From positions 1-26,348 of IMG/VR virus record IMGVR_UViG_3300017613_000224: a stretch of DNA of 26,348 bases; one strand, written 5' to 3'. Below the pieces are notes generated by a model. The model did no database searches. It was not told the origin of the DNA and saw only the letters and a list, made by a program, of their open reading frames with translations. Below, piece after piece: positions 1-26,348 of the stretch. Numbering within the stretch: the stretch's first letter is position 1; each line of letters begins with the position of its first letter. Source of the DNA: a virus. The translations under genes and the position numbers were made by a program.

Positions 1-1140
1 AATGGTTCTTCAGCCGTTTGCATAACAAGCGTTTCAGCAGTTACTCTGAACACCAACTTTGAAGTTTATATTACTGATGAAGAAACTGATACTATCATTG
101 ACACATTAGACAGTTCAGATGGTTATTTCAATTTTCAAGATGGTTATTTCACTGCTTCAATAGATTGGGAAACAAGGGCAATACCTGAAGGCTGTTATTC
201 AATAGGCGTGTTTGACCCTTGTCCATGTAGTCAGGGCGGCATCATTGCCTTAGATTTTAAAACAGGCGTTCACAACTGGACTGTTGGAACGAATTGGACA
301 CTTAGCGGAAACGGATCTGCTGACTTCAGTGGTTCAACATCTTCTGAAAGCAATCTTGATCATGTGCTTTGTGCAGATACAACATACACTGTGACATACA
401 CATTGAAGTACTTGACAGGAAACGGTGAATTCAGGGTGCGTCTTGGTTCAACACTTGGCACGCTTCGCACTGCTGATGGCATATATACAGAAGACATCAC
501 AGCAAATTCAACAGGTTTCTTCATGCGTGGAAGTTCATCAAGTGGTGCAGCTACATTCAGCATTCAAGAAATGTCAATTGAAATTGCAGACAAGACAGCA
601 ACCTATTCATCAAATACCATCTATGTGAACAACGCTGATTTCGGTTGTAAGACATACAATCTTGCATTGTGTAATGACCATGATGGTTTAGGCTTTGGCT
701 TTGCGAATACAGGCTTCAGACCTAATTTCAGAATTGATTGTTCATTGTCAAGAGGTCAGAAGGTAGGTGACCGACAAGCGTATAACTATTCAAACGGAAT
801 TAAGAAAACAACGTGGTCAACGGCTCGGATTGGGCGTGAATTGGGTGGTGACTTTCCTAGTCACTTGATTTATTTCATGATGCTGACACCTGATGCTGAC
901 CATTTCTATGTTGATGATGTTGAGTATTTCGTTGAAGATGATGAATTTCCGACACCTTCATGGGATGATAACGCACATCAAGGCGGTTTCACATTGAATA
1001 TAAGTGAGAAACAACAACTGATTGAAAATAGAAGATTGACAAGCGTTTCAGTTGGTTGTTTACCTGATGGCAATCCTATTGGAAGCAGCGCAACAATCGG
1101 CATTGCAGATGAACAAGGCAGACAAATAACGGATGGCTAA
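1..1140 (+). CDS. Tail/fibre-type structural protein, 5'-truncated
   Basis: The frame is open from base 1 to the TAA at 1138-1140, so only the C-terminal 379 codons are present and the start lies upstream. An internal ATG or GTG start is possible but unlikely because the reading is continuous. The protein is rich in Thr, Ser, Gly and Asn with alternating hydrophobic residues, as in beta-sandwich fibre or carbohydrate-binding modules. One segment (CADTTYTVTYTLKY, about codons 123-136) looks like a jelly-roll carbohydrate-binding-type strand pattern. Paired Cys residues (CPCS) occur near codon 75. There is no signal peptide or membrane segment in the visible part. It precedes another small structural gene and a terminator, so it ends a late tail operon. 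Role as a distal tail or host-recognition protein is inferred from composition and position; no catalytic motif was seen. Confidence 0.6.
   Translation, partial: NGSSAVCITSVSAVTLNTNFEVYITDEETDTIIDTLDSSDGYFNFQDGYFTASIDWETRAIPEGCYSIGVFDPCPCSQGGIIALDFKTGVHNWTVGTNWTLSGNGSADFSGSTSSESNLDHVLCADTTYTVTYTLKYLTGNGEFRVRLGSTLGTLRTADGIYTEDITANSTGFFMRGSSSSGAATFSIQEMSIEIADKTATYSSNTIYVNNADFGCKTYNLALCNDHDGLGFGFANTGFRPNFRIDCSLSRGQKVGDRQAYNYSNGIKKTTWSTARIGRELGGDFPSHLIYFMMLTPDADHFYVDDVEYFVEDDEFPTPSWDDNAHQGGFTLNISEKQQLIENRRLTSVSVGCLPDGNPIGSSATIGIADEQGRQITDG
118..159 (+). repeat. Two-copy 21-base tandem repeat inside the fibre gene
   Basis: The 13-mer GATGGTTATTTCA occurs at 118-130 and again at 139-151, a period of 21 bases. 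It encodes a repeated Asp-Gly-Tyr-Phe in frame. It is most likely a small duplication within a beta-structured protein and has no obvious regulatory meaning. Confidence 0.6.
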
Positions 1141-1161
1141 TATCACATGGCTTTTAATATT

Positions 1162-1169
1162 TAACTTTA
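1162..1169 (+). promoter_or_regulatory. Promoter-like box TAACTTTA just before 1175 ATG
   Basis: TAACTTTA followed by C fits the Bacteroidota -7 element TAnnTTTG at seven of eight positions and matches the TTTAC form seen elsewhere in this window. It ends 5 bases before the ATG at 1175. No TTG at -33 is visible, so this may be weak or fortuitous. Confidence 0.35.
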
Positions 1170-1174
1170 CAATT

Positions 1175-1705
1175 ATGGCAACAAATCAATTTTCAGATTA
1201 TCCAGTAGCAGGTTCAGCAGATTATGCAGATGGAACAACATTTTTAATTCAGAATGAAGATGGTGAAACCAAGTTGGCTGATTTAGAGAACTTGAAAAGC
1301 ACGTTCTTTTGTGAAACGCTATGCACAACGGTAACAATAACATCGGCCGAAGTGTTAGCACTTAATTCATCACCTCTTGAAATAATAGCAGCACAAGGTG
1401 CAGGAACAGCCATCCAATTGATTGGGGCTGTTCTAAAGGTTGATTTTAATTCGGCAGCTTATGCATCAGCAACAACGCCATATTTGGGAACGCTCACTTC
1501 ATATGATGATGGAATGCAATTCAACGCATTCTTAGCCGCTTTGTCAACAACAATGGCTTATGGTGCATTTGTAGATGCCGCACCATCAGCAGGGGCAGAC
1601 ATTATTGAAAATGAAAGCATTGTTCTTGGAACAGCAGCAGCAGACCCAACGGGCGGTGATAGTGACTTGCAAATTTGGGTGTATTACCGAATAATTGCAG
1701 TTTGA
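1175..1705 (+). CDS. Small phage structural protein (fibre/decoration-like)
   Basis: This 176-residue protein begins MATNQFSDYPVAGSADYA, a Gly/Ala/Asp-rich N-terminus typical of virion attachment segments. The middle has a run with the pattern TITSAEVLALNSSPLEII, and the C-terminus ends in a beta-strand-like stretch with Val-Tyr-Tyr-Arg. I recall this start-and-end pattern from adhesin-like tail proteins of Bacteroidota phages, but that is from memory. An in-frame ATG at 1133 would overlap the upstream gene by 8 bases. I prefer 1175 because the extra 14 residues are hydrophobic and unlike the rest, and because a promoter-like box sits just upstream of 1175. It is the last gene before the terminator at 1728. 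Exact function unknown. Confidence 0.65.
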   Translation: MATNQFSDYPVAGSADYADGTTFLIQNEDGETKLADLENLKSTFFCETLCTTVTITSAEVLALNSSPLEIIAAQGAGTAIQLIGAVLKVDFNSAAYASATTPYLGTLTSYDDGMQFNAFLAALSTTMAYGAFVDAAPSAGADIIENESIVLGTAAADPTGGDSDLQIWVYYRIIAV

Positions 1706-2005: not shown

Positions 2006-2199
2006 AAAAGAATGAACCTATTTCTGATGGGAAAGTTCATGAAGCAATTCCTATCAGAAGCAACGAATATCAAGAGCCAATTGGGGAAAGTGAAAATGAA
2101 ATGGTAATTCCAAGTTCATTTACGGTTTGCTCAACAGATGACTTGGCTGATAGAATGGTAAAAGATGTTTGGGCTTATCATGAAAGTAGAAAGAAATGA
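2002..2199 (+). CDS. Hypothetical small protein in the head operon
   Basis: Sixty-five residues, acidic in the middle and with a short amphipathic C-terminus (LADRMVKDVWAYHESRKK). No Cys pair, signal peptide or membrane segment is seen. It overlaps both neighbours by ATGA (2002-2005 and 2196-2199), which strongly supports it as a real gene translated together with the MuF-like gene. Function not recognised. Confidence 0.65.
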   Translation: MKKNEPISDGKVHEAIPIRSNEYQEPIGESENEMVIPSSFTVCSTDDLADRMVKDVWAYHESRKK

Positions 2200-3824
2200 G
2201 CATTATCAGTGACAAAGTAGAAGCATTGACAACCGTACCTGATGAATGGGCGGCTGCAATATTTGACTTTCAACCAAAGCTGTTGAACCGTTTAACGAAA
2301 CTTTCATCAGAACTTACTTTGACCAGTGAAGGGTTGATTGAAATGACTGCACAAAATCTGACAAGGATTGAAGCAATCATGGCTGACCTGAAACAATTCA
2401 TGACTTCAGGTGAATACCGTTCAATGGTTCAAAAGTTAGATCAACAATTTATTCAGCAGCAGGTTAATACAGTAGCATATTTTGAAAGTTCATTTGGCTC
2501 TGCACCTGCAACATCATTTGCATCTACTCTTTACAATGTCAACAGGGTTAAAATGCTTGAAACCGTTATTGGTGATGCAGGTCTTGATGCCTTATTGTAT
2601 TCATCAGTTCGTGATACTTTACTGGATGGCGTTGCTTCAGGTGCTTCATATTCTGATATGATTGACAACCTTGAATTGATTAGTGTAGGGCGTGACGATT
2701 TAGAAGGCCGTTTGATGCGTTATTCAAGGCAATTGGTATCTGATACCCTTGCAACAACAGATAGGCAATTCACGCAGATAATAGGCAATGAATTGGGGCT
2801 TGAATGGTATAGGTACGTTGGCGGTAAAATGAAAACAACACGTTGCTTCTGTAATGAACGCAATCAGGGTTATTACCATCATAATGAAGTTCGGGCATGG
2901 GGTGCAGGAAGTAAAAAGGCAATCGGTCAATGCTATGATAAGAAATACACTTGGCAAGGAAGGTTCAGAGGCACAAACGAAGAAAACATATTTGGTTGGG
3001 TTGGCGGTTACAATTGCCAACATTCTCTATTGCCAATATCAGAATTTGATGTTCCTCAAAAGGATGCTGAAAGAGCCGTTTCTTTGGGATATTACAAACC
3101 GACCAAGACAGCGAAAGAACACTTTGGATTTGATGGTGCTTCAGGTTCATCAGCAACTTCATCGAATGTTAAAACATCATATCAGAGCAAAGCAATAATT
3201 GAGCAGGAAATAAAAAAGATTGTTCCTGATGCAAATCTTACTGGATGGAGTGTTTCTCAAAGCTCAACGATGCTTGACACACTGCAAACAATTCCTGCTG
3301 TTGGGCGGCCAAATTTTGTAGGTTCAGGCGCGCAATTTGCAAAAGCAATGGGTAGGCCGTTAGGCAGAAAAGCTAATCAATGGTATGGTGTAGCCAATAC
3401 TACACAGGATTATTCTTTTGCTAAGAAAGCAACAGTAACAACAAGGGGTGTTGGCATAAACGTTAGGCAATTCAAAAATGTAGATGACATTACCAACGCA
3501 AAAATATCAGCACAAGCAAGGTATAAATCAAAAACGGGTAGAAATTATTTTTACAACACTGATGGCAGATTGACACATTTTCATGAAACAGGTCACATAT
3601 TTGACCAAAGATTTGGCAAAGGCAGCGAATGGAAAAGTAAGGTGAATAAATGGAGAAGTGAGCAGCCTTATGATATACTTAAATCTGATAATGAAGCATG
3701 GGCTGAAGCATGGGCGGATTATTTCGGAAACGGTTCAAAAAGAATACCTGATTACGTGAAAACATATATTGAAGAAAGGTTGGTATTAGCAGAAAGCATT
3801 GGTAATAGATTTGATAATTTATAA
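2196..3824 (+). CDS. MuF-like head protein with C-terminal HExxH metallopeptidase domain
   Basis: This 542-residue protein starts with long helices (1-200), then a segment resembling the MuF/SPP1 gp7 minor head protein fold with Cys at 217, 219 and 274 and a conserved-looking GGYNCQHSLLPIS. After a Ser/Thr-rich linker (about 300-330) comes a second domain. It holds HETGH at residues 463-467, the HExxH zinc signature, followed by E500 and E504 in NEAWAEAWADYF, a suitable third ligand as in gluzincins such as the anthrax lethal-factor-like family. MuF proteins are minor capsid components that can be delivered with DNA, and MuF fusions to toxin domains are known from temperate phages. Here the second domain could process virion proteins or act in the host cell; both are inference. 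ATGA overlap with 2002. Confidence 0.75.
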   Translation: MSIISDKVEALTTVPDEWAAAIFDFQPKLLNRLTKLSSELTLTSEGLIEMTAQNLTRIEAIMADLKQFMTSGEYRSMVQKLDQQFIQQQVNTVAYFESSFGSAPATSFASTLYNVNRVKMLETVIGDAGLDALLYSSVRDTLLDGVASGASYSDMIDNLELISVGRDDLEGRLMRYSRQLVSDTLATTDRQFTQIIGNELGLEWYRYVGGKMKTTRCFCNERNQGYYHHNEVRAWGAGSKKAIGQCYDKKYTWQGRFRGTNEENIFGWVGGYNCQHSLLPISEFDVPQKDAERAVSLGYYKPTKTAKEHFGFDGASGSSATSSNVKTSYQSKAIIEQEIKKIVPDANLTGWSVSQSSTMLDTLQTIPAVGRPNFVGSGAQFAKAMGRPLGRKANQWYGVANTTQDYSFAKKATVTTRGVGINVRQFKNVDDITNAKISAQARYKSKTGRNYFYNTDGRLTHFHETGHIFDQRFGKGSEWKSKVNKWRSEQPYDILKSDNEAWAEAWADYFGNGSKRIPDYVKTYIEERLVLAESIGNRFDNL

Positions 3825-3825
3825 T

Positions 3826-4008
3826 ATGGAAGCAAATTTAATTTGTGTGAATTGTAAGCACTTTGAAGGCAAATCATTTAGTTGTAAGGCTTACCCAAAC
3901 GGCATTGATAATGATGACATCATTTCAGGTGAAAGCGACCACAGCAAAATAATGTCAGATCAACAGTCTGAAGTAGTGTTTGAAGCAATTGAAGCAGATG
4001 AAGATTAG
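3826..4008 (+). CDS. Small CxxC protein next to MuF gene
   Basis: Sixty residues; start chosen at 3826, two bases after the upstream stop, because the longer reading would start inside the MuF-like gene. The N-terminus has Cys at 6, 9 and 18 (CVNCKHFEGKSFSC) followed by a Pro-Asn-Gly-Ile turn and an acidic tail. I recall similarly patterned short Cys proteins just downstream of portal/minor head genes in many phages, where they are usually left as hypothetical. It overlaps the next gene by 11 bases. Possible zinc-binding structural protein. Confidence 0.65.
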   Translation: MEANLICVNCKHFEGKSFSCKAYPNGIDNDDIISGESDHSKIMSDQQSEVVFEAIEADED

Positions 4009-4675
4009 CATGATTACAGGCGTTTGGAAACGACCTGAAGTTTTCAAGATGTTTGCAAAGGGCGTTCATCATTTAAACGCTGAAATCAATGTGATTGTTG
4101 CAGGTTCAGAGGGTGACAAATCAAGAAAGATGGTTGAGGCTGAAGGTTTCCAGTATATCGAAATACCAAACCAACCGTTGGCATTGAAGATGAACACAAC
4201 AGCATTGGCAGCCGTTGACAGTGATTACACTATTTGTATGGGTTCTGATGATATTCTTTCACCTGAATTATTTGACCATTATCTGCATTGGATGGGTAGG
4301 GGCTATGACTTCATCGGTTGTCAGGACTTCTATTTTTATGACATCAAAAGCGGTAAATCAGCCTATTGGGGCGGTTATCGGGATAGAAGGCGCAGGATGC
4401 ACACAGCAGGTGCAGGAAGGTGTATTTCAAAGCGTTTAATGGATAGATGGGGTTGGAGGCCGTGGAAAGTTGGCGATGATGCTATGCTTGACAATTCAAT
4501 GCAAGGAAACATCAGAGGCAAACAGCGTATTGTGAACCTGAAGAAAGAGGGCTTGTTTGCTTTGGATATTAAAAGCCCAACCAACATGACACCCTTTAAA
4601 CTTTGGGATAACACAAGATTTATTGACAGCGATATTATCAAACAACAATTCAACTATCTATTTGAAAAAGCGTAA
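3998..4675 (+). CDS. GT-A-fold glycosyltransferase (family 2-like)
   Basis: The 225-residue product begins MKISMITGVWKRPEV, a typical nucleotide-sugar-binding strand-turn of GT2 enzymes. It has Asp-Asp at 84-85 in MGSDDIL, matching the metal/nucleotide-binding DXD-type site. The C-terminal half has a Trp/Gly/Arg-rich acceptor-type region and a KVGDDAML motif (around 156-163) that may be the catalytic base. There is no membrane helix, so it should be cytoplasmic. The start at ATG 3998 overlaps the Cys protein by 11 bases; a TTG at 3980 or ATG at 4010 are alternatives. It opens a run of four sugar-modification-type genes. It probably transfers a sugar to a glycan, lipid or virion protein; substrate unknown. 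Confidence 0.75.
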   Translation: MKISMITGVWKRPEVFKMFAKGVHHLNAEINVIVAGSEGDKSRKMVEAEGFQYIEIPNQPLALKMNTTALAAVDSDYTICMGSDDILSPELFDHYLHWMGRGYDFIGCQDFYFYDIKSGKSAYWGGYRDRRRRMHTAGAGRCISKRLMDRWGWRPWKVGDDAMLDNSMQGNIRGKQRIVNLKKEGLFALDIKSPTNMTPFKLWDNTRFIDSDIIKQQFNYLFEKA

Positions 4676-5998
4676 ATGTGCGGAATAGCAGCAGTTATAA
4701 ATGGAACAGTCGGTGAAGCTCAATCAATGGCTCATGCCATCAGAAGGCGTGGCATCAACACCAAAACAACTGTTCTGAATGAATTGACCGTTTCGTTTGT
4801 TCATTTGCCTATTGTAGATGATATTCCACAACCTGCAACATCAGGTGAAACAACTGTTTGGTTGAATGGCTTTATAAGCAACTGGAAAGAACTTTGTAAA
4901 AAGTACGATGTCAAAGCAAAGAATGACACTGAATATCTTGCGTGGCATCTGAATAACAAGAAACCCAAAAGCGAATTAAACGGCTTCTTTGCCGTTATCT
5001 ATTACAACGGGGCTGTTCATACATTCACAGATAGATATGGCATCAAACAGCTTTACAAGTACAAGTACAGAGGCACAACATATATCTGTTCAGAGGTAAA
5101 AGGATTGAAAGCGGTTATTGACCTGAAGATTGATTTTGATGCGATGGCTGATTGGGAATACAGTCTTGGCGTAATGACTGACCACACAATTTATCAGGGC
5201 GTTGAAAGGGTTGAATGTTTGCCTTTTGTGAAGCCTGAAAAGTTGGTTGAAGGTCAGATTGATTATTACACAGCACAGGTTGAATTGAAAAGACTTTGGC
5301 AACAATCGATTGAAAGAAATAAGTACATGGATGCAGGTGTTTATTTATCAGGTGGCATTGATAGTGGTTTGATTGTGCGTTCATTGGGGTGCTATAGTTT
5401 TTCAGTTGATTACCTGAATGAAAAAAGTGAAATTGACAACATCAAACTGAATACAGCAGGAAATCACTATACACTGATTTGTAATGATTTTACCGAAAGT
5501 CATTACCCTGAAGAAACATTGTTTGCCCTTGATGATTTCAAGGTTGGTTCATGTTATACCAATTTTGCAATTGCTGAACTTGCTTCTAAATTCTGCAAAG
5601 TGATGTATTCAGGTGCAGGAGGTGATGAAGTCTTTAACGGTTACACGCACAGATATGATAAACCTATCAATCAGGTCATTAAACGCACACAGAGCGAAGA
5701 ACGGCGTGAATATGACATAACACACAAAGAATATGATTGGAGGTACTTAAAAGGGATATTGGTTGTTGAAGATAGAATGAGTGGTTTTCATACAATGGAA
5801 ACACGCTATCCTTTACTGGACAATGATTTTGTTGATTTTGCTTTGTCGTTACCTGATGAATATTTGAACAACAAACGTATCTTGAAAGATATTTCAGGGC
5901 TTCATCCTGATGTTATCAATGGAAAGAAACGGGGCTTTTCAAATCCTCACTTCACCAATGATGAATGGGTTGAATTTTGTAAAGAAAGTATTGAATGA
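4676..5998 (+). CDS. AsnB-like glutamine-dependent amidotransferase
   Basis: The protein begins MCGI, so Cys2 becomes the N-terminal nucleophile of a class II glutamine amidotransferase after Met removal. Residues 225-231 read SGGIDSG, the PP-loop ATP-pyrophosphatase signature, and GGDE lies at 315-318, both hallmarks of asparagine synthetase B. At 440 residues it is shorter than typical bacterial AsnB (about 500-640) but both domains look complete. AsnB uses Gln and ATP to amidate Asp. AsnB-like enzymes in O-antigen loci (for example WbpS) instead amidate sugar carboxylates. Sitting between a glycosyltransferase and an acyltransferase, a sugar-amidating role is plausible; making Asn for virion protein synthesis is the alternative. 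Start abuts the upstream stop; overlaps 5995 by ATGA. Confidence 0.88.
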   Translation: MCGIAAVINGTVGEAQSMAHAIRRRGINTKTTVLNELTVSFVHLPIVDDIPQPATSGETTVWLNGFISNWKELCKKYDVKAKNDTEYLAWHLNNKKPKSELNGFFAVIYYNGAVHTFTDRYGIKQLYKYKYRGTTYICSEVKGLKAVIDLKIDFDAMADWEYSLGVMTDHTIYQGVERVECLPFVKPEKLVEGQIDYYTAQVELKRLWQQSIERNKYMDAGVYLSGGIDSGLIVRSLGCYSFSVDYLNEKSEIDNIKLNTAGNHYTLICNDFTESHYPEETLFALDDFKVGSCYTNFAIAELASKFCKVMYSGAGGDEVFNGYTHRYDKPINQVIKRTQSEERREYDITHKEYDWRYLKGILVVEDRMSGFHTMETRYPLLDNDFVDFALSLPDEYLNNKRILKDISGLHPDVINGKKRGFSNPHFTNDEWVEFCKESIE

Positions 5999-6129
5999 TA
6001 ACACCATTGAACAAGTCACAACAACCTTTGAGCCGTTGGAGATTTACCATTGATGGCAAGACAAAACATCTATTTGCTTTGAACAGAAAACACGCTGAAC
6101 AGAAGGCTAAAAAGAACGGTTGGATATGA
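5995..6129 (+). CDS. Small basic protein (44 aa)
   Basis: This short gene is supported by ATGA overlaps with both the amidotransferase (5995-5998) and the acyltransferase (6126-6129). The product is Lys/Arg/Gln-rich: a strand-like part (RWRFTIDGKTKHLFA) followed by a helix (NRKHAEQKAKKNGW). The strand-then-helix order recalls a small AP2/integrase N-terminal-type DNA-binding fold, but it is too short to be sure. Function unknown. Confidence 0.5.
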   Translation: MITPLNKSQQPLSRWRFTIDGKTKHLFALNRKHAEQKAKKNGWI

Positions 6130-6662
6130 CAAGCGAAGAACTTTATTCTGATGAATTTATCAACCTGAATGGCAACTACATTCACAAGACTGCAATCATT
6201 TATTCAAACGTTGAAATTGGCAAAGGGAATATCATCAGAGCCAACACGGTCATTGGTTCAAATGGCGAAATGCGAAAGCCTAAAGATTACGAAGGCACAA
6301 ACATTGACTTTCAGAAGTCATTCAAAGGGCGTGTGATAATAGGCAGCCACAATGTAATTTCTGAACACGTTACAATTCAAAGGCCGTATGATGAAAACGC
6401 TGCTACCTACATTGGAAGCAACAACATAATCATGGCGCATTCGCACATTGGTCATGATGCCATCATTGCTGATGATTGTGAAATCTGTACTGGAGTAATT
6501 ATTGGCGGTTATTCAATCATAAAAAGTCATGTGAAGTTGAAGTTGGGCGTAACCGTTCGCAATCGCTTAACCATTGGCAGGGGTGCTTTGGTTGGTCTTG
6601 GCGGTGTAGTTGTCAAGGATGTTGAAGATGGTGAAGTTGTTTATGGAAATCCTGCTAAATAA
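6126..6662 (+). CDS. Left-handed beta-helix acyltransferase (LpxA-like)
   Basis: The 178-residue protein shows hexapeptide repeats from about residue 17 (IHKTAIIYSNVEIGKGNII) onward, the left-handed parallel beta-helix of sugar acyltransferases. MAHSHIGHD at 103-111 matches the LpxA region holding the catalytic His. The C-terminus VVYGNPAK is the usual end of this family. LpxA makes the first acyl-transfer step of lipid A; shorter relatives N- or O-acetylate nucleotide sugars. It lacks the LpxA C-terminal helical domain (LpxA is about 260 residues), so I favour a sugar acyl/acetyltransferase acting on the product of the neighbouring genes. The start at ATG 6126 gives an ATGA overlap; the TTG two codons upstream is less likely. 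Confidence 0.82.
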   Translation: MTSEELYSDEFINLNGNYIHKTAIIYSNVEIGKGNIIRANTVIGSNGEMRKPKDYEGTNIDFQKSFKGRVIIGSHNVISEHVTIQRPYDENAATYIGSNNIIMAHSHIGHDAIIADDCEICTGVIIGGYSIIKSHVKLKLGVTVRNRLTIGRGALVGLGGVVVKDVEDGEVVYGNPAK

Positions 6663-6795
6663 TATTTTCATCTTGAAAGATGTATTCAACAACCTGATGA
6701 AGCAGTTTACACAGCCAAATATGATGTTGAAACCCATTCTCAATAATGAATTGGTCAACCTTTTCTTTATTGTTCATTCAATAAAAATAGCATGA
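6643..6795 (+). CDS. Possible small hydrophobic protein (50 aa)
   Basis: A reading frame starting at ATG 6643, inside the end of the acyltransferase gene, runs to a TGA that forms an ATGA overlap with the next gene at 6792-6795. It fills the otherwise empty 130 bases. The product is hydrophobic in parts (MEILLNNIFILKDVF and NLFFIVHSIKIA) and could touch a membrane. A shorter start at 6697 is possible. It may equally be leftover spacer. Confidence 0.35.
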   Translation: MEILLNNIFILKDVFNNLMKQFTQPNMMLKPILNNELVNLFFIVHSIKIA

Positions 6796-7424
6796 AAACC
6801 ATCATTGGAATAACATGGATTGCAAGATTGCGTGAATACTTTCCTAAGTCTATAAAGACCGTTGACCATTCTGATGTTATAATCTATCCTGATGGTCAGG
6901 AGTTCAAATTTCCAACACCTTTTCAAGTTAAAAACTTAGGTGAAAACGTTGGTTGTTTCAAACACTATTACAGGGTTTTAGAAGATTTATGTAACACTGA
7001 TGCAGATGTTGTTGGTGTGTTCGCTGATGATATTCTGTACAAGAAAGGTTGGATTGATAAGGCGGTTGAAAAGCTGCAAGATGAAAGCGTTGGTTTTGTT
7101 GCCTGTTACACGCCAAAAGGATTAGCAATCAGAAACAAGTTCAAAGGCGGTTGGAATGAGATCAATGGCGGTTTTGCATCCAGTTGGGGCGGTGGTTACT
7201 TAATGCGTAAAGAAGTAGCAGCGCAAGTATTGACCCATCATTTTATATTAGACCATTTAGAGAATTACAGTAAGAACCAACAAATTGATCATGCTGTACC
7301 TGAAGCAATTCATCAAATGGGATTGCGGCAACTGTTTCACGTTCCAAGTTTCATTGACCATATTGGATTGAAATCAACGATTGGTCATAAACATCAAAGT
7401 TGGGATAGGGGCGTTGGTTGGTGA
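6792..7424 (+). CDS. GT-A-like glycosyltransferase
   Basis: A 210-residue protein starting MKTIIGITWIAR, with Asp-Asp at 79-80 in VFADDILY, the probable metal/nucleotide-sugar site. A Gly/Trp-rich segment (GGFASSWGGGYLMRKE, about 126-141) resembles the acceptor-loop region of GT2 enzymes. Near the C-terminus, PSFIDHIGLKSTIGH resembles the conserved His-Ile-Gly-x-x-Ser end of several small glycosyltransferases. It differs from the 3998 enzyme enough to suggest a different donor or acceptor. There is no membrane segment. It ends the sugar island; the next gene has its own promoter-like boxes. Substrate unknown; assignment from motifs only. Confidence 0.68.
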   Translation: MKTIIGITWIARLREYFPKSIKTVDHSDVIIYPDGQEFKFPTPFQVKNLGENVGCFKHYYRVLEDLCNTDADVVGVFADDILYKKGWIDKAVEKLQDESVGFVACYTPKGLAIRNKFKGGWNEINGGFASSWGGGYLMRKEVAAQVLTHHFILDHLENYSKNQQIDHAVPEAIHQMGLRQLFHVPSFIDHIGLKSTIGHKHQSWDRGVGW

Positions 7425-7450: not shown

Positions 7451-7482
7451 TATATTTACTTAATTCAAAACGCTTAACTTTG
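7451..7482 (+). promoter_or_regulatory. Promoter-like boxes upstream of portal operon
   Basis: TATATTTACTT at 7451-7461 resembles the window's repeated TAtnTTTAC motif, and TAACTTTG at 7475-7482 is an exact TAnnTTTG -7 box ending 5 bases before the ATG at 7488. No well-spaced TTG is visible for either. This is the only sizeable gap between the sugar island and the portal genes. Confidence 0.5.
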
Positions 7483-7487
7483 CAGGT

Positions 7488-7613
7488 ATGGCATCCAAGA
7501 ATATCAAGATAAGACCAAAAGACGATTTGAAAAAGAAGTTTGATAATCGTTGTGGTGGAAAGAAAGGCGGCTGTCAATTAACAGATTTTTACATTATCGC
7601 AAAGGCAGCATGA
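7488..7613 (+). CDS. Small Cys/Lys-rich protein before portal gene (41 aa)
   Basis: A 41-residue frame from ATG 7488 to TGA 7611-7613, overlapping the portal start by ATGA. It is basic (MASKNIKIRPKDDLKKKFD) and has Cys at 22 and 29 around Gly-Gly-Lys-Lys-Gly-Gly. The promoter-like box just upstream and the coupled overlap support translation. Function unknown; it may serve mainly to couple portal translation. Confidence 0.55.
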   Translation: MASKNIKIRPKDDLKKKFDNRCGGKKGGCQLTDFYIIAKAA

Positions 7614-9454
7614 CACAAGATGAAGTACTTGGATTGGTTCAGCAGATTGTTGAAAAGGAAAAGACAGCAGGAAACACATCTGTTCAAAGTATCATAACAA
7701 GAGCCGACAAAAAGAAGGTTGTTGACTACAATTCAATATATGTTGATGCTCTTATGCAATCGCAACGCATAAAGGTTCATGCCGACCCTGATTTTTTTCC
7801 TGAAAGGTTATTCAATAAGCGTTCACCAAATCAGACTGATGAACAGTTTGATTACGTTAAAGAAAACTATCAATGCACAACAAACCCTGTTTGGATAGAC
7901 TATCAATCTGTAATTGGTCGTTCTTTTATTGATAGCAACTGGAATATCATTTGGCCTGAAGAAAGTGATGAAGTTAATGACTTCAAAAAATACACTTCAA
8001 AAGGAGTTCCTATTTATGGAAGCGTTGAAAATTTCGTTACAAACGTTTTGCCGAATATCAAAGGGCAAGATGCAAACGGTGTAATTGCTGTCAGACCTTA
8101 CAGGTTCAAACTTGCTGAAGATGCTGAAGGCAACATGAAGATTGATGACCAAGAGCGTTTTGAGCCGACCATATATTATCATCCATCAAAGAATGTATTG
8201 CTTTCTGAAGATAATTTCACGCTTTGCATTGATGATGAATTAAGCGTTGTGAATGTTGGAAAACGAAAGGTGAAAGAAGGCAGGGTTCTGTACTTATACA
8301 CCAATCAAGGCATTTTCAAGATCATTCAGACAGGTCAAAAGAGTAAGAACATTTATGTTGTTGCGTGGGAATATGAACACGCTGAAGGCGTTGTTCCTGC
8401 AACCAAATTGAAGGGCGTTCCAATCATCAATTCACATGGTGTGATATATTGGGTTTCACGCTTTTACTATGCTGTTCCATTGCTTGATTTAGCATTGACA
8501 AACAGGAACATTCTGCAAGTATCAATCAATTCATCTGTTTTCCCGTTCAGGGTAATGATGGCCTCTGAATGTGATTTTTCAGATGATAGGGGTTCATGCT
8601 CAAATGGTCAATGGCAGTTGATTGAAAGCGGTGAAATAAGCGGTACTTGTCCGAAATGTAACGGTTCAGGGCAATCAGTACCAATCAGCCCATTAGGTCA
8701 ATACGAATGGCAACAACCTTCAATCATTGATGGAAGCGGTTCATTTCCTGCAAAGCCTGTTGAATACATTTCACCATCAAACGAACCTTTGAATTTTGTT
8801 CGTGAACAAGTTGAGGTTGATACCGACAAGGCAAAATCAATCCTTCATTTGCATCGTTCCAATTCTAAAGTAACGGGCGCAGATAGCAAGACAGCAACGG
8901 GTGAAGGTATTGAGCAATCAGAGAAATTCAGTTTTGTAAGGGGTGAAAGCAATCAGTTATTTGACCTTTGGGAATGGATATTGAACAGAATGGCGTGGCA
9001 ACGATATGACAACTATGATGCTGTTCCTACCCTTATCAGACCACAAACATTTGACTTCAGAACTGAAGCTGATATTTGGAATGAAATAGACAAGGCAAGG
9101 AACGCTGATGCACCTCCTTTTATTATTCATCAATTGTTTATCCAGTTGCTCAATAACCTTTATGCAACCGACCCAAAAACGCAGAAGGTATTTGAAACGA
9201 TTGTGAACGCTGACAAGCTGTTTTCTTTAGGCCAACAGGCGATTGCATTGCGTAAAGCATCAAACACAGTTGAGAATTGGGAATTGGGGCTTCATGATAG
9301 TTCATTGCAGCTTATCAATGAGATCATGCGTGAAGATGAAAAGTACATTGACAAACCATTATCTGAAAGGGTAACTGAATTAGTTGACAAATCGAAAAGT
9401 GCTATATTTACACCATCGAACAACTTAATTGACAGCTTACTAAATCAGACCTAA
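7610..9454 (+). CDS. Portal protein
   Basis: I call the 614-residue product the portal from its size, position before SAP-like, scaffold and capsid genes, and a helix-rich C-terminal half as in portal stem/clip regions. A longer frame exists from 7550, but ATG 7610 gives an ATGA overlap with the small gene upstream. A striking insert has Cys at 321, 330, 347 and 350, including CPKCNGSG like a DnaJ-type zinc knuckle. I recall such an insert from Bacteroidota phage portal annotations. Portals form the dodecameric channel for DNA packaging and join head to tail. The last codons contain a promoter-like box for the next genes (9403). There is no terminase beside it, unlike the usual order. Confidence 0.68.
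   Translation: MTQDEVLGLVQQIVEKEKTAGNTSVQSIITRADKKKVVDYNSIYVDALMQSQRIKVHADPDFFPERLFNKRSPNQTDEQFDYVKENYQCTTNPVWIDYQSVIGRSFIDSNWNIIWPEESDEVNDFKKYTSKGVPIYGSVENFVTNVLPNIKGQDANGVIAVRPYRFKLAEDAEGNMKIDDQERFEPTIYYHPSKNVLLSEDNFTLCIDDELSVVNVGKRKVKEGRVLYLYTNQGIFKIIQTGQKSKNIYVVAWEYEHAEGVVPATKLKGVPIINSHGVIYWVSRFYYAVPLLDLALTNRNILQVSINSSVFPFRVMMASECDFSDDRGSCSNGQWQLIESGEISGTCPKCNGSGQSVPISPLGQYEWQQPSIIDGSGSFPAKPVEYISPSNEPLNFVREQVEVDTDKAKSILHLHRSNSKVTGADSKTATGEGIEQSEKFSFVRGESNQLFDLWEWILNRMAWQRYDNYDAVPTLIRPQTFDFRTEADIWNEIDKARNADAPPFIIHQLFIQLLNNLYATDPKTQKVFETIVNADKLFSLGQQAIALRKASNTVENWELGLHDSSLQLINEIMREDEKYIDKPLSERVTELVDKSKSAIFTPSNNLIDSLLNQT
9403..9414 (+). promoter_or_regulatory. Promoter box inside the end of the portal gene
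   Basis: TATATTTACACC matches the window's repeated motif exactly, with TTG at 9384-9386, 16 bases upstream. It lies within portal codons and would give a leader of about 35-40 bases to the ATG at 9455. It could boost scaffold and capsid expression. Confidence 0.5.
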
Positions 9455-10773: not shown

Positions 10774-11847
10774 ATGTCAGCAGGATTATGTGAAATTATT
10801 GATTGTCCAACTATGCAGAAGCATATTGACGACACTTTCAGGGCTGGAAATATGCGACCTGAAAAGCTACCTTTTCTTTCTTATGTAATGTCAGAAGCGA
10901 ACAGAAACGCTTCTTCATTCGAGATTGCAGACAAAGGTAAAGTGCGACCAGTTCAGGTTGTTTATGACCAACCATTATTGACTTCAGAAGTTGGTTCTGA
11001 TGGTTCAGGTTGTTCAGCTTCAACAGAAGAATGTGATACATACCAAACGTATGATTTTGATACAACTGCAAACCGTTATTCAGAATTCACAGTTGGTTTG
11101 ACTGACTTGGTTGGAACGTGTGAAGAAAATTCAGCGTTCATTGCAAGGAAAATCCAAAAGCGTATTAACGCAATCAAAGAAGCCGTTTCAGAAGATTTGG
11201 CTGATGCAGCAACTTCAGACAGGGGTAATTGGTCTGTTGATACTGCAAACGTTGATGGAACGAATTTGAACGCTACTGATGTACTTGAAGTGAATACTTT
11301 ACTTACAGCAGGAACGCCAAGCATTCCAAACGCTGCAATCTTTGAGCAGTTAAGAACTGCAATGGAAATGAGCCGAATTGAAGAAGCAGGTATCTTTGGA
11401 GGCAATGACCTTGCTTCAGCAGTACGCAGAGCAATGGCAGGTGGAGTTGATAGCTTAGGTTACAACTTGGCAACCATGCTTGAAAGATACGGTGTTGCAG
11501 CAATGTATGACCGACACTTGACTGACAGCCTAACGGCAATCAATGCAACCAACCTTGCAGTTGGTATTGGTTCAATTGTTCCAGTAGGGTTCAGCCTTTA
11601 TGAAGCTGATGGTGCTTCCGTAAATAACGGAACTGATATTGCTCAAACGATGTTTGACCCTGAAACGGGAATGAAGTTTGACCTTCGTGTACAGCGAGTC
11701 TGTGACGATTGGAATTTCAATATCAGAGCCACATACCAATTTTACACTTGGCCTGATGATTTGTATCAGTCAGGAAGTAACTTTGAGGGCGTTAAAGGTC
11801 TTGCAGCTGTTGAAGTTGTATGTGATGACCTTCAGGCTTGTGCCTAA
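10774..11847 (+). CDS. Major capsid protein
   Basis: A 357-residue protein directly after the scaffold-like gene and before a strong terminator, the position and length of an HK97-type major capsid protein without an attached protease domain. The N-terminus (MSAGLCEIIDCPTMQ) is short; the middle is Asp/Thr/Ala-rich with alternating helices and strands; the C-terminus (FYTWPDDLYQSGSNFEGVKG) resembles capsid P-domain endings. No membrane or catalytic motif is present. It is preceded by a structured A-rich leader instead of an SD sequence and followed by two hairpins, consistent with an abundant, stabilised mRNA. The HK97 fold is inferred, not visible in sequence. Confidence 0.75.
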   Translation: MSAGLCEIIDCPTMQKHIDDTFRAGNMRPEKLPFLSYVMSEANRNASSFEIADKGKVRPVQVVYDQPLLTSEVGSDGSGCSASTEECDTYQTYDFDTTANRYSEFTVGLTDLVGTCEENSAFIARKIQKRINAIKEAVSEDLADAATSDRGNWSVDTANVDGTNLNATDVLEVNTLLTAGTPSIPNAAIFEQLRTAMEMSRIEEAGIFGGNDLASAVRRAMAGGVDSLGYNLATMLERYGVAAMYDRHLTDSLTAINATNLAVGIGSIVPVGFSLYEADGASVNNGTDIAQTMFDPETGMKFDLRVQRVCDDWNFNIRATYQFYTWPDDLYQSGSNFEGVKGLAAVEVVCDDLQACA

Positions 11848-21858: not shown

Positions 21859-22156
21859 GCCATCAACCGACAAAGCCAAAGTTCAATGGATATTAGAACG
21901 CTCACAGAAGGCAAGGAACAGCAATGTGATACTTTACAAGCTGATATTGAAACACTTCCTGAAGGTTAATTTGAAAGGCATTTCGGCCTTTGAATTGCTT
22001 ACTGGAATGAAGGAAAAGATTTATCCTGATTATTCTAATGTTGCAAGAGCATCAAGGAAACTGCAAGAACTTCATCCTGAATTGCGTGGCTCTGAATGGA
22101 AAAAACGACATGGATTGCAATCTGAAACGGTTGAGGATTTGAAAACTAATTTCTGA
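21851..22156 (+). CDS. Basic hypothetical protein, possible DNA binding
   Basis: A 101-residue basic protein with several helices (KVQWILERSQKARNS, VILYKLILKHFLKV) and a C-terminal segment resembling a helix-turn-helix (VARASRKLQELHPELRGS). It lies directly before a DNA methyltransferase gene, joined as TGATG at 22154-22158. It might be a regulator or origin-associated protein; not recognised. Confidence 0.6.
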   Translation: MPKPSTDKAKVQWILERSQKARNSNVILYKLILKHFLKVNLKGISAFELLTGMKEKIYPDYSNVARASRKLQELHPELRGSEWKKRHGLQSETVEDLKTNF

Positions 22157-22818
22157 TGGATAGAAGCAACATCAACATCAATCTAGGCGACTGCATGGAG
22201 GCAATGGCAAAGATGCCAGACAACGCTTATGATTTAGCTATTGTTGATGTTCCGTACGGCATTGGTGAAAGTTCAAACGATAACAAAAGCCGTTCTAAAC
22301 TTGGTAAATCAAAAGATTACGGTTGTAAGGATTGGGATGATAACGCACCAGAAAAGAGATACTTTACAGAACTAAAAAGAATTTCTACAAATCAGATAAT
22401 TTGGGGTGCAAATCATTTCATTGAAAGCATACCGAGTGCAAATGGTTCTTGTTGGGTTGTATGGGATAAGCAGAACGGAGAAAATGATTTTGCAGATTGC
22501 GAGCTTGCTTATTGCAGCTTCAAAAGTGCTGTGAGAAAAGTAGATTTAAGGTGGCACGGAATGCTTCAGCACGACATGAAAAACAAAGAAATCCGTATTC
22601 ACCCAACACAGAAACCCGTTAAACTTTACGAGTGGCTTTTAACTAATTACGCCAAAGAAGGTGACAAGATACTCGACACGCATTGCGGTTCGGGTTCAAT
22701 CGCTTTAGCTTGTTGGAATTTAAAATTCGATTTAGATGCTTGGGAACTTGACGAAGATTATCATGCTGCTTCTATTAAGCGTTTAGAGCAACACAAAAGA
22801 CAACTTCAATTGTTTTAG
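22156..22818 (+). CDS. DNA methyltransferase, beta class, DVPY motif
   Basis: A 220-residue N6-adenine/N4-cytosine-type DNA methyltransferase. The catalytic motif is D31-V-P-Y34, a variant of DPPY; the leading Asp favours N6-adenine. The SAM-binding motif comes later (DTHCGSGS, 174-181), after HPTQKPVKLYEWL, so the order is motif IV then I, as in the beta class. It is short, so the target-recognition region is small. No restriction enzyme gene is adjacent, so this is an orphan, perhaps protecting phage DNA or marking an origin. Codon choice in about 22250-22760 looks different from neighbours, suggesting separate acquisition. Confidence 0.88.
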   Translation: MDRSNININLGDCMEAMAKMPDNAYDLAIVDVPYGIGESSNDNKSRSKLGKSKDYGCKDWDDNAPEKRYFTELKRISTNQIIWGANHFIESIPSANGSCWVVWDKQNGENDFADCELAYCSFKSAVRKVDLRWHGMLQHDMKNKEIRIHPTQKPVKLYEWLLTNYAKEGDKILDTHCGSGSIALACWNLKFDLDAWELDEDYHAASIKRLEQHKRQLQLF

Positions 22819-25072: not shown

Positions 25073-25642
25073 ATGAGCAATTGCGTATCATACGGATGCA
25101 CCGAAGTACCTGATCAGTTATTGAATGATTGTGGTGAAACTATTTCAGGCGGTGGTCAACAGGCTCTTGTCTTTCTTTGCGGTTCAGCAACAACTGAAGC
25201 AGATGATTTTGACAATGACACATTGGTTAATCAAGACATTGCAGCAGGTCTTGCAGCCTTATACAAGAATATCAAGGTTGGTTTACCTGCACCTTCTCCA
25301 GTAGATCAGGGTTCAACATACATTGCAGGTGCTTCACCTAAGACAGTGACCTATGATTGGTCAGGAACTTGGATGGATGAAAATGTGAATGAAACAAACG
25401 ATGTAAGCTATGACACGCTCAATGCAACATCAGGTTTCACGGCAGAAGCCATCTTGATTAAATTGGCTGATGATGACACAAAAGGCGAACTGATAAAAGA
25501 TACTTCAGCAGGTATTCTTTTCAAGGGCGGCAAAGTCATTCCTGATGATAACACTGATAGTATTCATTACGAATATGGTCTGACTTACAAGTCAAAATTG
25601 AGTTCAAAAAGACAAACATTGCCATCAGGCGTGTTCTCTTGA
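25073..25642 (+). CDS. Major tail tube protein candidate
   Basis: A 189-residue beta-rich protein. The N-terminus has several Cys (MSNCVSYGCTEVPD, then a third in LLNDCGE); the middle has strand patterns such as VTYDWSGTWMDENVNETND; and the end (IHYEYGLTYKSKLSSKRQT) resembles a tail-tube C-terminal strand. Size, composition and start of a new operon fit a siphovirus tail tube or sheath-like protein. No enzyme motif is seen. Position after replication genes would put the tape measure and remaining tail genes beyond the window end, joining the tail genes at the window start if the genome is circular or permuted. Confidence 0.55.
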   Translation: MSNCVSYGCTEVPDQLLNDCGETISGGGQQALVFLCGSATTEADDFDNDTLVNQDIAAGLAALYKNIKVGLPAPSPVDQGSTYIAGASPKTVTYDWSGTWMDENVNETNDVSYDTLNATSGFTAEAILIKLADDDTKGELIKDTSAGILFKGGKVIPDDNTDSIHYEYGLTYKSKLSSKRQTLPSGVFS

Positions 25643-25658
25643 TAAAATCTTTCATGGT

Positions 25659-26348
25659 GTGAACGTTTTATTGGTTGCGTTCGGAAAGCGAGGTTATGGG
25701 TTAATGACTCACAACCTCGCTTTGTCATTACGGCATCATTCGCCAAATGTCAAACTGCACCTGTTCATCAGTGAAGAACTAAAGCAGTATGTAAACTCTG
25801 AACACTTTGAGAACATCAGAACCATTGAATTTGATGATTTCAATGACCATCGGGGTGTTGCACCTGTAAAGATCAAAACACGTTTATATGAATTTGGGCG
25901 TTCTCTTGGCCTTAAGTCGTTTCTTTATCTTGATGTGGATGCGATATGTATGAACGACATAAGTCCTTTCTTAGAAGCTCTAAAAGGGCGCGACATAGCA
26001 ACAGAGATTATAGGGCAAGGCGGCAAGAACGACAATATCAATTATTCTATTTGGGCATCCAATCAAAAGATTTGGGATTTCTTCAACCTTGATGACGATG
26101 ATACGCTTTGCGGTATTCAATCCAGTTGGATGTATTTAGAGCAATCAGAGGTTTGTGATAAGTTGCAAGAGTATTTGAATTGGTATTCTTTAAAGGGTTG
26201 GCCTATCCATATGCTGAAACAAAAATGGGCGCATGGTTATCCTGATGAACTTTCCTATCAAGGCGTTTTTGCAAAGATGGGGTTGATGCCTCAACCACCA
26301 ATTACTGACAAGCACAGAATATTGTTTGGCAACAAGAAGAACAAAACA
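25659..26348 (+). CDS. Glycosyltransferase (GT8-like, DXD), 3'-truncated
   Basis: A frame starting at GTG 25659, 16 bases after the tail-gene stop, stays open to the window end (230 codons). No ATG in this frame lies upstream near the gene. The start (NVLLVAFGKRGYGLMTHNL) is the nucleotide-binding segment of small glycosyltransferases. D92-V-D94 in FLYLDVDAIC is a DXD metal/nucleotide-sugar motif, and the next residues (NDISPFLEAL) follow the usual family-8-like pattern. It differs from the two enzymes in 3998-7424. Being next to a tail gene suggests virion or host-glycan modification. A strong hairpin lies in codons 9-22. Confidence 0.72.
   Translation, partial: MNVLLVAFGKRGYGLMTHNLALSLRHHSPNVKLHLFISEELKQYVNSEHFENIRTIEFDDFNDHRGVAPVKIKTRLYEFGRSLGLKSFLYLDVDAICMNDISPFLEALKGRDIATEIIGQGGKNDNINYSIWASNQKIWDFFNLDDDDTLCGIQSSWMYLEQSEVCDKLQEYLNWYSLKGWPIHMLKQKWAHGYPDELSYQGVFAKMGLMPQPPITDKHRILFGNKKNKT
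25685..25723 (+). promoter_or_regulatory. Strong hairpin inside the start of the 25659 gene
   Basis: AAAGCGAGGTT (25685-25695) pairs perfectly with AACCTCGCTTT (25713-25723). After one A-C mismatch, TGGGT (25697-25701) pairs with ACTCA (25707-25711), leaving a 5-base loop. There is no T-run after it (GTCATTA follows). It could attenuate transcription after the tail gene or limit translation of the glycosyltransferase. Confidence 0.7.

Follow-up and report, generated by a model that had tools for sequence, protein, structure and literature searches.

Why would a tailed phage carry a set of sugar-modifying enzymes among the genes for its own particle? The question is raised by IMG/VR virus record IMGVR_UViG_3300017613_000224, a linear record of 26,348 bases that was analysed over its whole length (hereafter, the window). 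A sequence-only reading of this DNA had placed two glycosyltransferases, an AsnB-like amidotransferase with Cys2, SGGIDS and GGDE intact, and an LpxA-like acyltransferase at 3998-7424, and the present analysis bears this out. The genes are GT1 (3998-4675), the AsnB-like gene (4676-5998), the acyltransferase gene (6126-6662) and GT2 (6792-7424), all four of them open reading frames (ORFs) on the plus strand. The answer we favor, with a rough probability of 0.55, is that they form a late, cytoplasmic virion-glycosylation cassette that would build a short glycan on virion proteins.

A mobile cassette beside virion genes

Relatives of the cassette are numerous among uncultured phages. The AsnB-like protein, followed by an alignment scan, returned 25 viral contigs (47 to 74% identity), and wherever the contig reaches far enough GT1 lies beside AsnB, usually together with the acyltransferase. 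A scan with GT1 added 68 further IMG/VR contigs, giving 69 GT1 loci with the window included; the gene set that the sequence-only reading had proposed to seek in related phage genomes recurs among them. Content was scored with profiles from the first contig set in the 52 loci whose contigs continue for 3 kb or more 3' of GT1. The acyltransferase is kept in 48 of the 52, either GT2 or X3 (another putative glycosyltransferase-like protein) in 44, and AsnB in 34 (25 window-type and 9 more distant). Some contigs are near copies, and the counts are therefore of contigs and not of independent events. Neighbors within the cassette commonly overlap by 4 to 30 bases, and the recurrence of GT1, AsnB and the acyltransferase together is far beyond chance.

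The cassette is nearly absent from cultured phages and from cellular genomes. Among 50,697 phage records the AsnB-like protein has only four weak matches (22-26%) and GT1 and GT2 have none; X3 finds matches of 25-26% among cultured phages, in Lak megaphages. In 84,980 bacterial and archaeal genomes the AsnB-like protein has a single match, on a phage-like contig (L032, CALMES010000119.1). That contig was binned as Peregrinibacteria and carries the cassette together with a VapE/primase protein that has a BT4734-like domain, on account of which it looks like a wrongly binned phage. Peregrinibacteria are not trusted as the cellular host, a near relative having been found in 0 of 286 other genomes of the phylum.

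The sequence-only reading had regarded the place of these genes within the head module as unusual. What is constant is instead nearness to virion genes of any kind. In the window's type of phage the cassette follows the tail genes, and here also a MuF-like gene, and precedes the portal gene; in L007 it also follows the tail genes, with portal and MuF far downstream. In sheath-bearing phages it stands, in either orientation, between the large terminase (TerL) and tail sheath genes. In a third type it is flanked by the portal gene and, at its other end, by genes for a ClpP-like head protease and the major capsid protein. Within 6.5 kb of the cassette, 53 of the 69 loci have a recognised structural gene; 27 have one at either end, the flanks being sheath/TerL (13), major capsid protein/portal (12) or tail protein c7/portal (2). 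With several virion loci occupied, and the cassette inverted in part of the sheath-bearing phages, a head-block place special to the window phage is ruled out.

The GT1 tree requires at least 12 changes of backbone label (minimum possible, 3), and the window's GT1 groups with those of L002 and L058, whose genome context is different, and not with ten others of the window's own backbone. The cassette occurs in at least three unrelated backbones, beside virion genes in each. That it moves between phages and yet stays at virion gene blocks is our main reason for preferring the virion as its target. Mobility and invertibility would also suit genes that make a small diffusible sugar compound, or modify some other cytoplasmic target, and that use the virion region merely as a convenient insertion site; secondary metabolites, too, are typically tailored by amidotransferase, acyl, sulfo and methyl steps. 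Two observations speak against it: unrelated phages carry the cassette at different virion loci, and it was not seen to bring along genes for nucleotide sugars, export or peptides. We consider such a product improbable.

Enzymes of the cassette

The genes are tightly packed, as had been described, but not simply by four overlaps. The GT1 stop codon and the AsnB-like start abut (TAA, ATG). The AsnB-like gene overlaps by ATGA a 44-codon ORF (5995-6129, plus strand) that in turn overlaps the acyltransferase start by ATGA, and whose role may be only translational coupling. A gap of 129 nucleotides separates the acyltransferase from GT2; it contains a tiny plus-strand ORF (6697-6795), doubtful as a gene, whose stop overlaps the GT2 start.

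GT1 matches Pfam Glycos_transf_2 (PF00535) at 4.4e-5, with 23.9 bits just above the cut-off of 23.3. Its AlphaFold2 model (pLDDT 92) finds GT-A enzymes of the PDB by Foldseek with an E value of 6e-10 and TM scores of 0.57 to 0.64, and proteins of uncultured Caudovirales phages with a TM score of 0.83. A GSDD motif is conserved. By family score and by modelled fold, GT1 is a GT-A glycosyltransferase of GT2-like type. GT1 of about a dozen phages of several backbones begins with a fused domain of some 55 residues that is lacking in the window (L003:9172, L005:9077, L007:9175, L077:5836 and others). This domain has no Pfam match, is absent elsewhere in the fetched loci, and could be a targeting part.

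The second putative glycosyltransferase, GT2, has an F-A-D-D motif and a PHROG 'glucosyltransferase' match of 1e-4 in the window; together with its relatives it matches PHROG 854 and 2835, both so named, at 6e-8 to 0.01. Its AlphaFold2 model (pLDDT 45) was too poor, and no fold search was made from it. In profile comparisons X3 shows no relation to GT2 and a weak match to GT1 (probability 25%). Further candidate glycosyltransferases accompany the cassette. The gene c8, of the GT2 family, lies 5' of GT1 in sheath-bearing phages. A third putative glycosyltransferase of the window (25659-26348, plus strand, truncated by the contig end) was recognised by alignment with relatives and has the L(Y/F)LDVDA motif, with DxD, as in GT8-type enzymes; it follows a c24-family protein in 25073-26348, and in L007, L013 and L014 the same pair separates GT2 from the scaffold and capsid genes.

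For the acyltransferase the best start is the ATG at 6126. It has hexapeptide repeats (Pfam Hexapep, 1.1e-18), its best PDB relatives are 8e62 and LpxA chains, and H-x-G-H-D is invariant, in keeping with a left-handed beta-helix enzyme that has the catalytic histidine of the HxxHD motif. The helix repeats and HxxHD are common to LpxA, the acyl-ACP--UDP-GlcNAc O-acyltransferase, and 8e62; unlike them, the phage protein lacks the C-terminal helical domain (PF13720, the LpxA C-terminal domain, was not found in it). With LpxA models it scores 78 to 81 bits, below cut-offs of 226 to 231.

Is the AsnB-like protein (440 residues; Asn_synthase 1.4e-26, GATase_7 1.4e-10) an asparagine synthetase? The members compared keep the M-C-G-I start, SGGIDS, GGDE and also the late lysine. 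The E. coli AsnB stretch TTIRAS, of which we take TTIR to be aspartate-site residues, is replaced by D-D-x-K-x-G-S-C-Y-T-N; the equivalent of E348 is alanine and that of R49 is mostly histidine. Scores fall below the cut-offs both for TIGR01536, asparagine synthetase B (144.4 bits against 267.1), and for the WbpS-type family TIGR03108 (79.5 against 816.9). All window-type phage proteins form one clade (support 100/100), and a 100/99 split sets this phage-specific group, with AsnB proteins of Agrobacterium and of a Lawsonia plasmid, apart from E. coli AsnB, N-acetylglutaminylglutamine amidotransferase and TIGR03108-like proteins; this last family was represented by proteins other than WbpS, WbqG and PGN_1234 themselves. 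On such sequence evidence the protein belongs to a third subfamily, neither asparagine-forming AsnB nor TIGR03108, and asparagine is probably not what the phage 'asparagine synthase' makes. A comparison of the kind suggested by the sequence-only reading, here against E. coli AsnB and TIGR03108-like proteins, separates it from asparagine-forming AsnB and also places it outside the TIGR03108-like clade. Asparagine synthesis as its role is rejected by score, motif and tree, and membership of the WbpS/TIGR03108 family by score and clade.

Viral asnB genes have been counted as auxiliary metabolic genes (PMC9636769), and the domain family here is the right one for a gene of asparagine or ammonia assimilation whose neighbors are incidental. 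The low TIGR01536 score, the changes at TTIRAS and E348 and the separate 100/100 clade all contradict this, and the window-type AsnB has been found only in the glycosyltransferase cassette; of the explanations weighed here it is the one to which we give least credence.

A likelier activity is indicated by the cellular kin. AsnB of Agrobacterium sp. MA01 (WP_069044180.1), the nearest of these, and that of the Lawsonia intracellularis plasmid form the neighboring branch and share SGGxDSG, G-x-S-[YW]-x-N and G-[AT]-G with the phage proteins, although these cellular proteins have 620 to 626 residues against 440. The Agrobacterium gene lies in a Wbp-like uronic-acid sugar locus with UDP-sugar genes (TviB/WbpA-, Gfo/Idh-, aminotransferase- and N-acetyl sugar amidotransferase genes), and the Lawsonia gene in a DegT/radical-SAM cluster. 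Since this Agrobacterium neighborhood encodes a pathway for uronic-acid sugars, our best guess, by analogy, is that the phage enzyme amidates a sugar acid. TIGR03108-like proteins have the same AsnB-like domain layout and probably also convert a sugar carboxyl to an amide; the phage proteins are about 190 residues shorter and stand outside their clade. WbpS, cited earlier as the known case, is not the sole tested one, WbqG and P. gingivalis PGN_1234 having genetic support too; uronamide formation by true WbpS-type enzymes rests on genetic evidence (PMC7468200).

Amidation itself is variable. L059 and L077 have the window's backbone and no AsnB, and L089 (2238-2468) retains between GT1 and the acyltransferase a 76-residue remnant of the AsnB glutaminase region (E 4e-17), which is a decay of the amidation step. 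A sulfotransferase lies between GT1 and AsnB in L002, L019, L020 and L030, a methyltransferase occurs in L070, and L098 has a possible second type of sulfotransferase. This second sulfotransferase-like gene and a possible gene for a nucleoside deoxyribosyltransferase-like protein lie at 2657-3714 of L098, where they separate GT1 from the acyltransferase. Since AsnB is lost in some loci and sulfo- and methyltransferases are present in others, the core consists of the glycosyltransferases and the acyltransferase, with amidation, sulfation and methylation optional. The amidated, acylated sugar of the sequence-only reading is accordingly matched by the sugar-building and tailoring gene set, with amidation a dispensable part of it.

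Candidate targets of the glycan

How the enzymes would work together, in substrates and in order of steps, we infer as follows. GT1 and GT2, with the GT8-like enzyme encoded elsewhere in the genome, would draw on host nucleotide sugars for glycosyl transfer; an acyl group would be placed on a sugar by the LpxA-like enzyme; and the AsnB-like enzyme would use glutamine and ATP to convert a carboxyl, most likely that of a uronic-acid sugar, to the amide. In related cassettes amidation would be replaced by nothing, or sulfation or methylation added. The glycan might serve for shielding, altered adsorption or particle stability.

Virion glycosylation by phage-encoded enzymes is already known. In mycobacteriophages, according to PMC12619734 (citing Freeman et al. 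2023), there are phage-encoded glycosyltransferases, and glycans are found on capsid and tail-tube subunits. The likeness to that system lies in the phage-encoded glycosyltransferases. The present cassette differs in its additional amidotransferase and acyltransferase, with sulfo- and methyltransferases as optional extras; it occurs in different phages and is known from its genes. As would be expected of a virion-glycosylation cassette, phage glycosyltransferases stand here in or beside virion genes and are conserved across phages. Either virion proteins or host lipopolysaccharide (LPS) had been suggested as the site of the sugar. The virion is the leading candidate target by position in virion blocks, by the absence of membrane segments (the cassette proteins of the window have no clear one, their 19-residue hydropathy peaking at 1.27) and by the hallmarks of conversion or hypermodification that were looked for in related records and not found.

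The enzymes might instead act on the host surface and remodel its LPS, capsule or S-layer glycan during infection, by diversion of lipid-linked precursors, for example to block superinfection or binding to debris. O-antigen loci typically contain AsnB-like, LpxA-like and glycosyltransferase genes, and such a locus houses the closest cellular relative of the AsnB-like protein; in P. gingivalis, WbpS forms the uronamide of a surface glycan (PMC7468200). Weighed against the strong link to virion gene blocks, and given a cassette devoid of lipid-carrier and membrane enzymes, a host glycan appears to us an unlikely target, if the most serious of the competitors. The Gtr O-antigen conversion cassettes of temperate phages resemble the present one in having phage-borne glycosyltransferases and differ in their GtrA flippase, membrane glycosyltransferase and integrase-bearing context. 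GtrA was found in 0 of 30 related records and an integrase in 1 of 30, none of these records being known to be complete and the control genomes being positive for both families, for which reason lysogenic O-antigen conversion is unlikely; a host-surface role is less improbable in a lytic infection.

Phage glycosyltransferases can also decorate DNA, and PHROG 854 and 2835 carry the label glucosyltransferase, so that hypermodification of phage DNA bases must be weighed. The cassette, however, sits with virion and not with replication genes. No thymidylate-synthase or hydroxymethylase homologue occurred in 21 related records, possibly fragments, and Tet_JBP gave no match in related records in a weak search whose control gave none either. 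Base modification seems very improbable, scarcely more credible than ammonia assimilation.

Several points weigh against virion glycosylation, or against parts of it. Most sheath-bearing phages carry the cassette in opposition to the structural genes, and joint expression of the two is not required. Missing membrane segments are compatible with a host-surface target too, since O-antigen glycosyltransferases are also soluble. The assignment of GT2 is weak; as the window protein has no Pfam match and only PHROG families to place it, this call is weaker than those of the other three genes. Weak, too, is the GT8-like assignment, the protein at 25659-26348 having no Pfam or PHROG match. The altered equivalents of R49 and E348 mean that activity of the AsnB-like protein is not assured. 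No phage-encoded sugar-acid maker or UDP-sugar dehydrogenase (PF03720) was found in the related records, none of which is known to be complete and which may be fragments; the sugar acid is for this reason assumed to come from the host.

It is tempting to go further, to a mobile 'glycan printer' shared by phages that are uncultured and probably infect Bacteroidota. Two or three glycosyltransferases and an acyltransferase would form its core, to which amidation, sulfation, methylation or no end-tailoring at all could be fitted; it would pass between unrelated tailed phages and vary the chemistry of the virion surface, and its amidotransferase would be a new sugar-amidating subfamily so far assigned to asparagine metabolism. 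This extended form is tentative and falls short of even odds. What appears to be new is a gene set, conserved and mobile among uncultured phages, whose end groups can be exchanged and whose amidotransferase forms a subfamily by itself; no paper describing such a cassette was found, in literature coverage that lacks most subscription journals.

If virion glycosylation is correct, many uncultured tailed phages would have a transferable particle-decorating system with variable end groups, which could alter particle recognition or surface binding. Some viral 'asnB' and 'lpxA' auxiliary metabolic genes, credited to ammonia assimilation and lipid A, would then be parts of a virion-glycan pathway, and members of the cassette's AsnB-like family would be misread as ammonia assimilation under the scheme of PMC9636769. 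The cassette family would offer defined targets for testing virion glycosylation outside the mycobacteriophages.

Flanking genes and possible host

The MuF-like and portal flanks named in the sequence-only reading are supported, through relatives only. The MuF-like, head-maturation-protease-like protein (2196-3824, plus strand) is 61% identical to L005:7905-8792, which matches phrog_595, head maturation protease (9e-7). The portal protein (7550-9454, plus strand) is 58% and 38% identical to proteins of L005 and L007 that match phrog_7376, portal; a pattern search of viral contigs with it found none, a limit of that search, given that L005 and L007 carry relatives. Upstream, the tail-module proteins c6 and c7 (1-1705, plus strand) were placed by synteny, following a tape-measure-like gene in L003, L004, L005, L007, L013 and L014, and are the constant upstream neighbors of the cassette in the window's phage type. 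A candidate major capsid protein is encoded at 10774-11847.

A Shine-Dalgarno-like motif precedes only 1 of the 36 starts chosen in the window, and a pattern scan found 3' of the cassette a TAnnTTTG element, TAACTTTGC (7475-7483, plus strand), a single weak motif resembling the Bacteroidota-type -7 promoter element. Both sequence features would fit a Bacteroidota host.

Two further observations concern genes outside the cassette. The MuF-like protein has 542 residues against 295 in its L005 relative, and its extra C-terminal part (window about 3560-3820) contains, as read from the sequence, an HExxH-like stretch, H-E-T-G-H, of a possible metallopeptidase. The replication part of the window encodes a DNA N6/N4 methyltransferase at 22156-22818 (PF01555, 4e-12).

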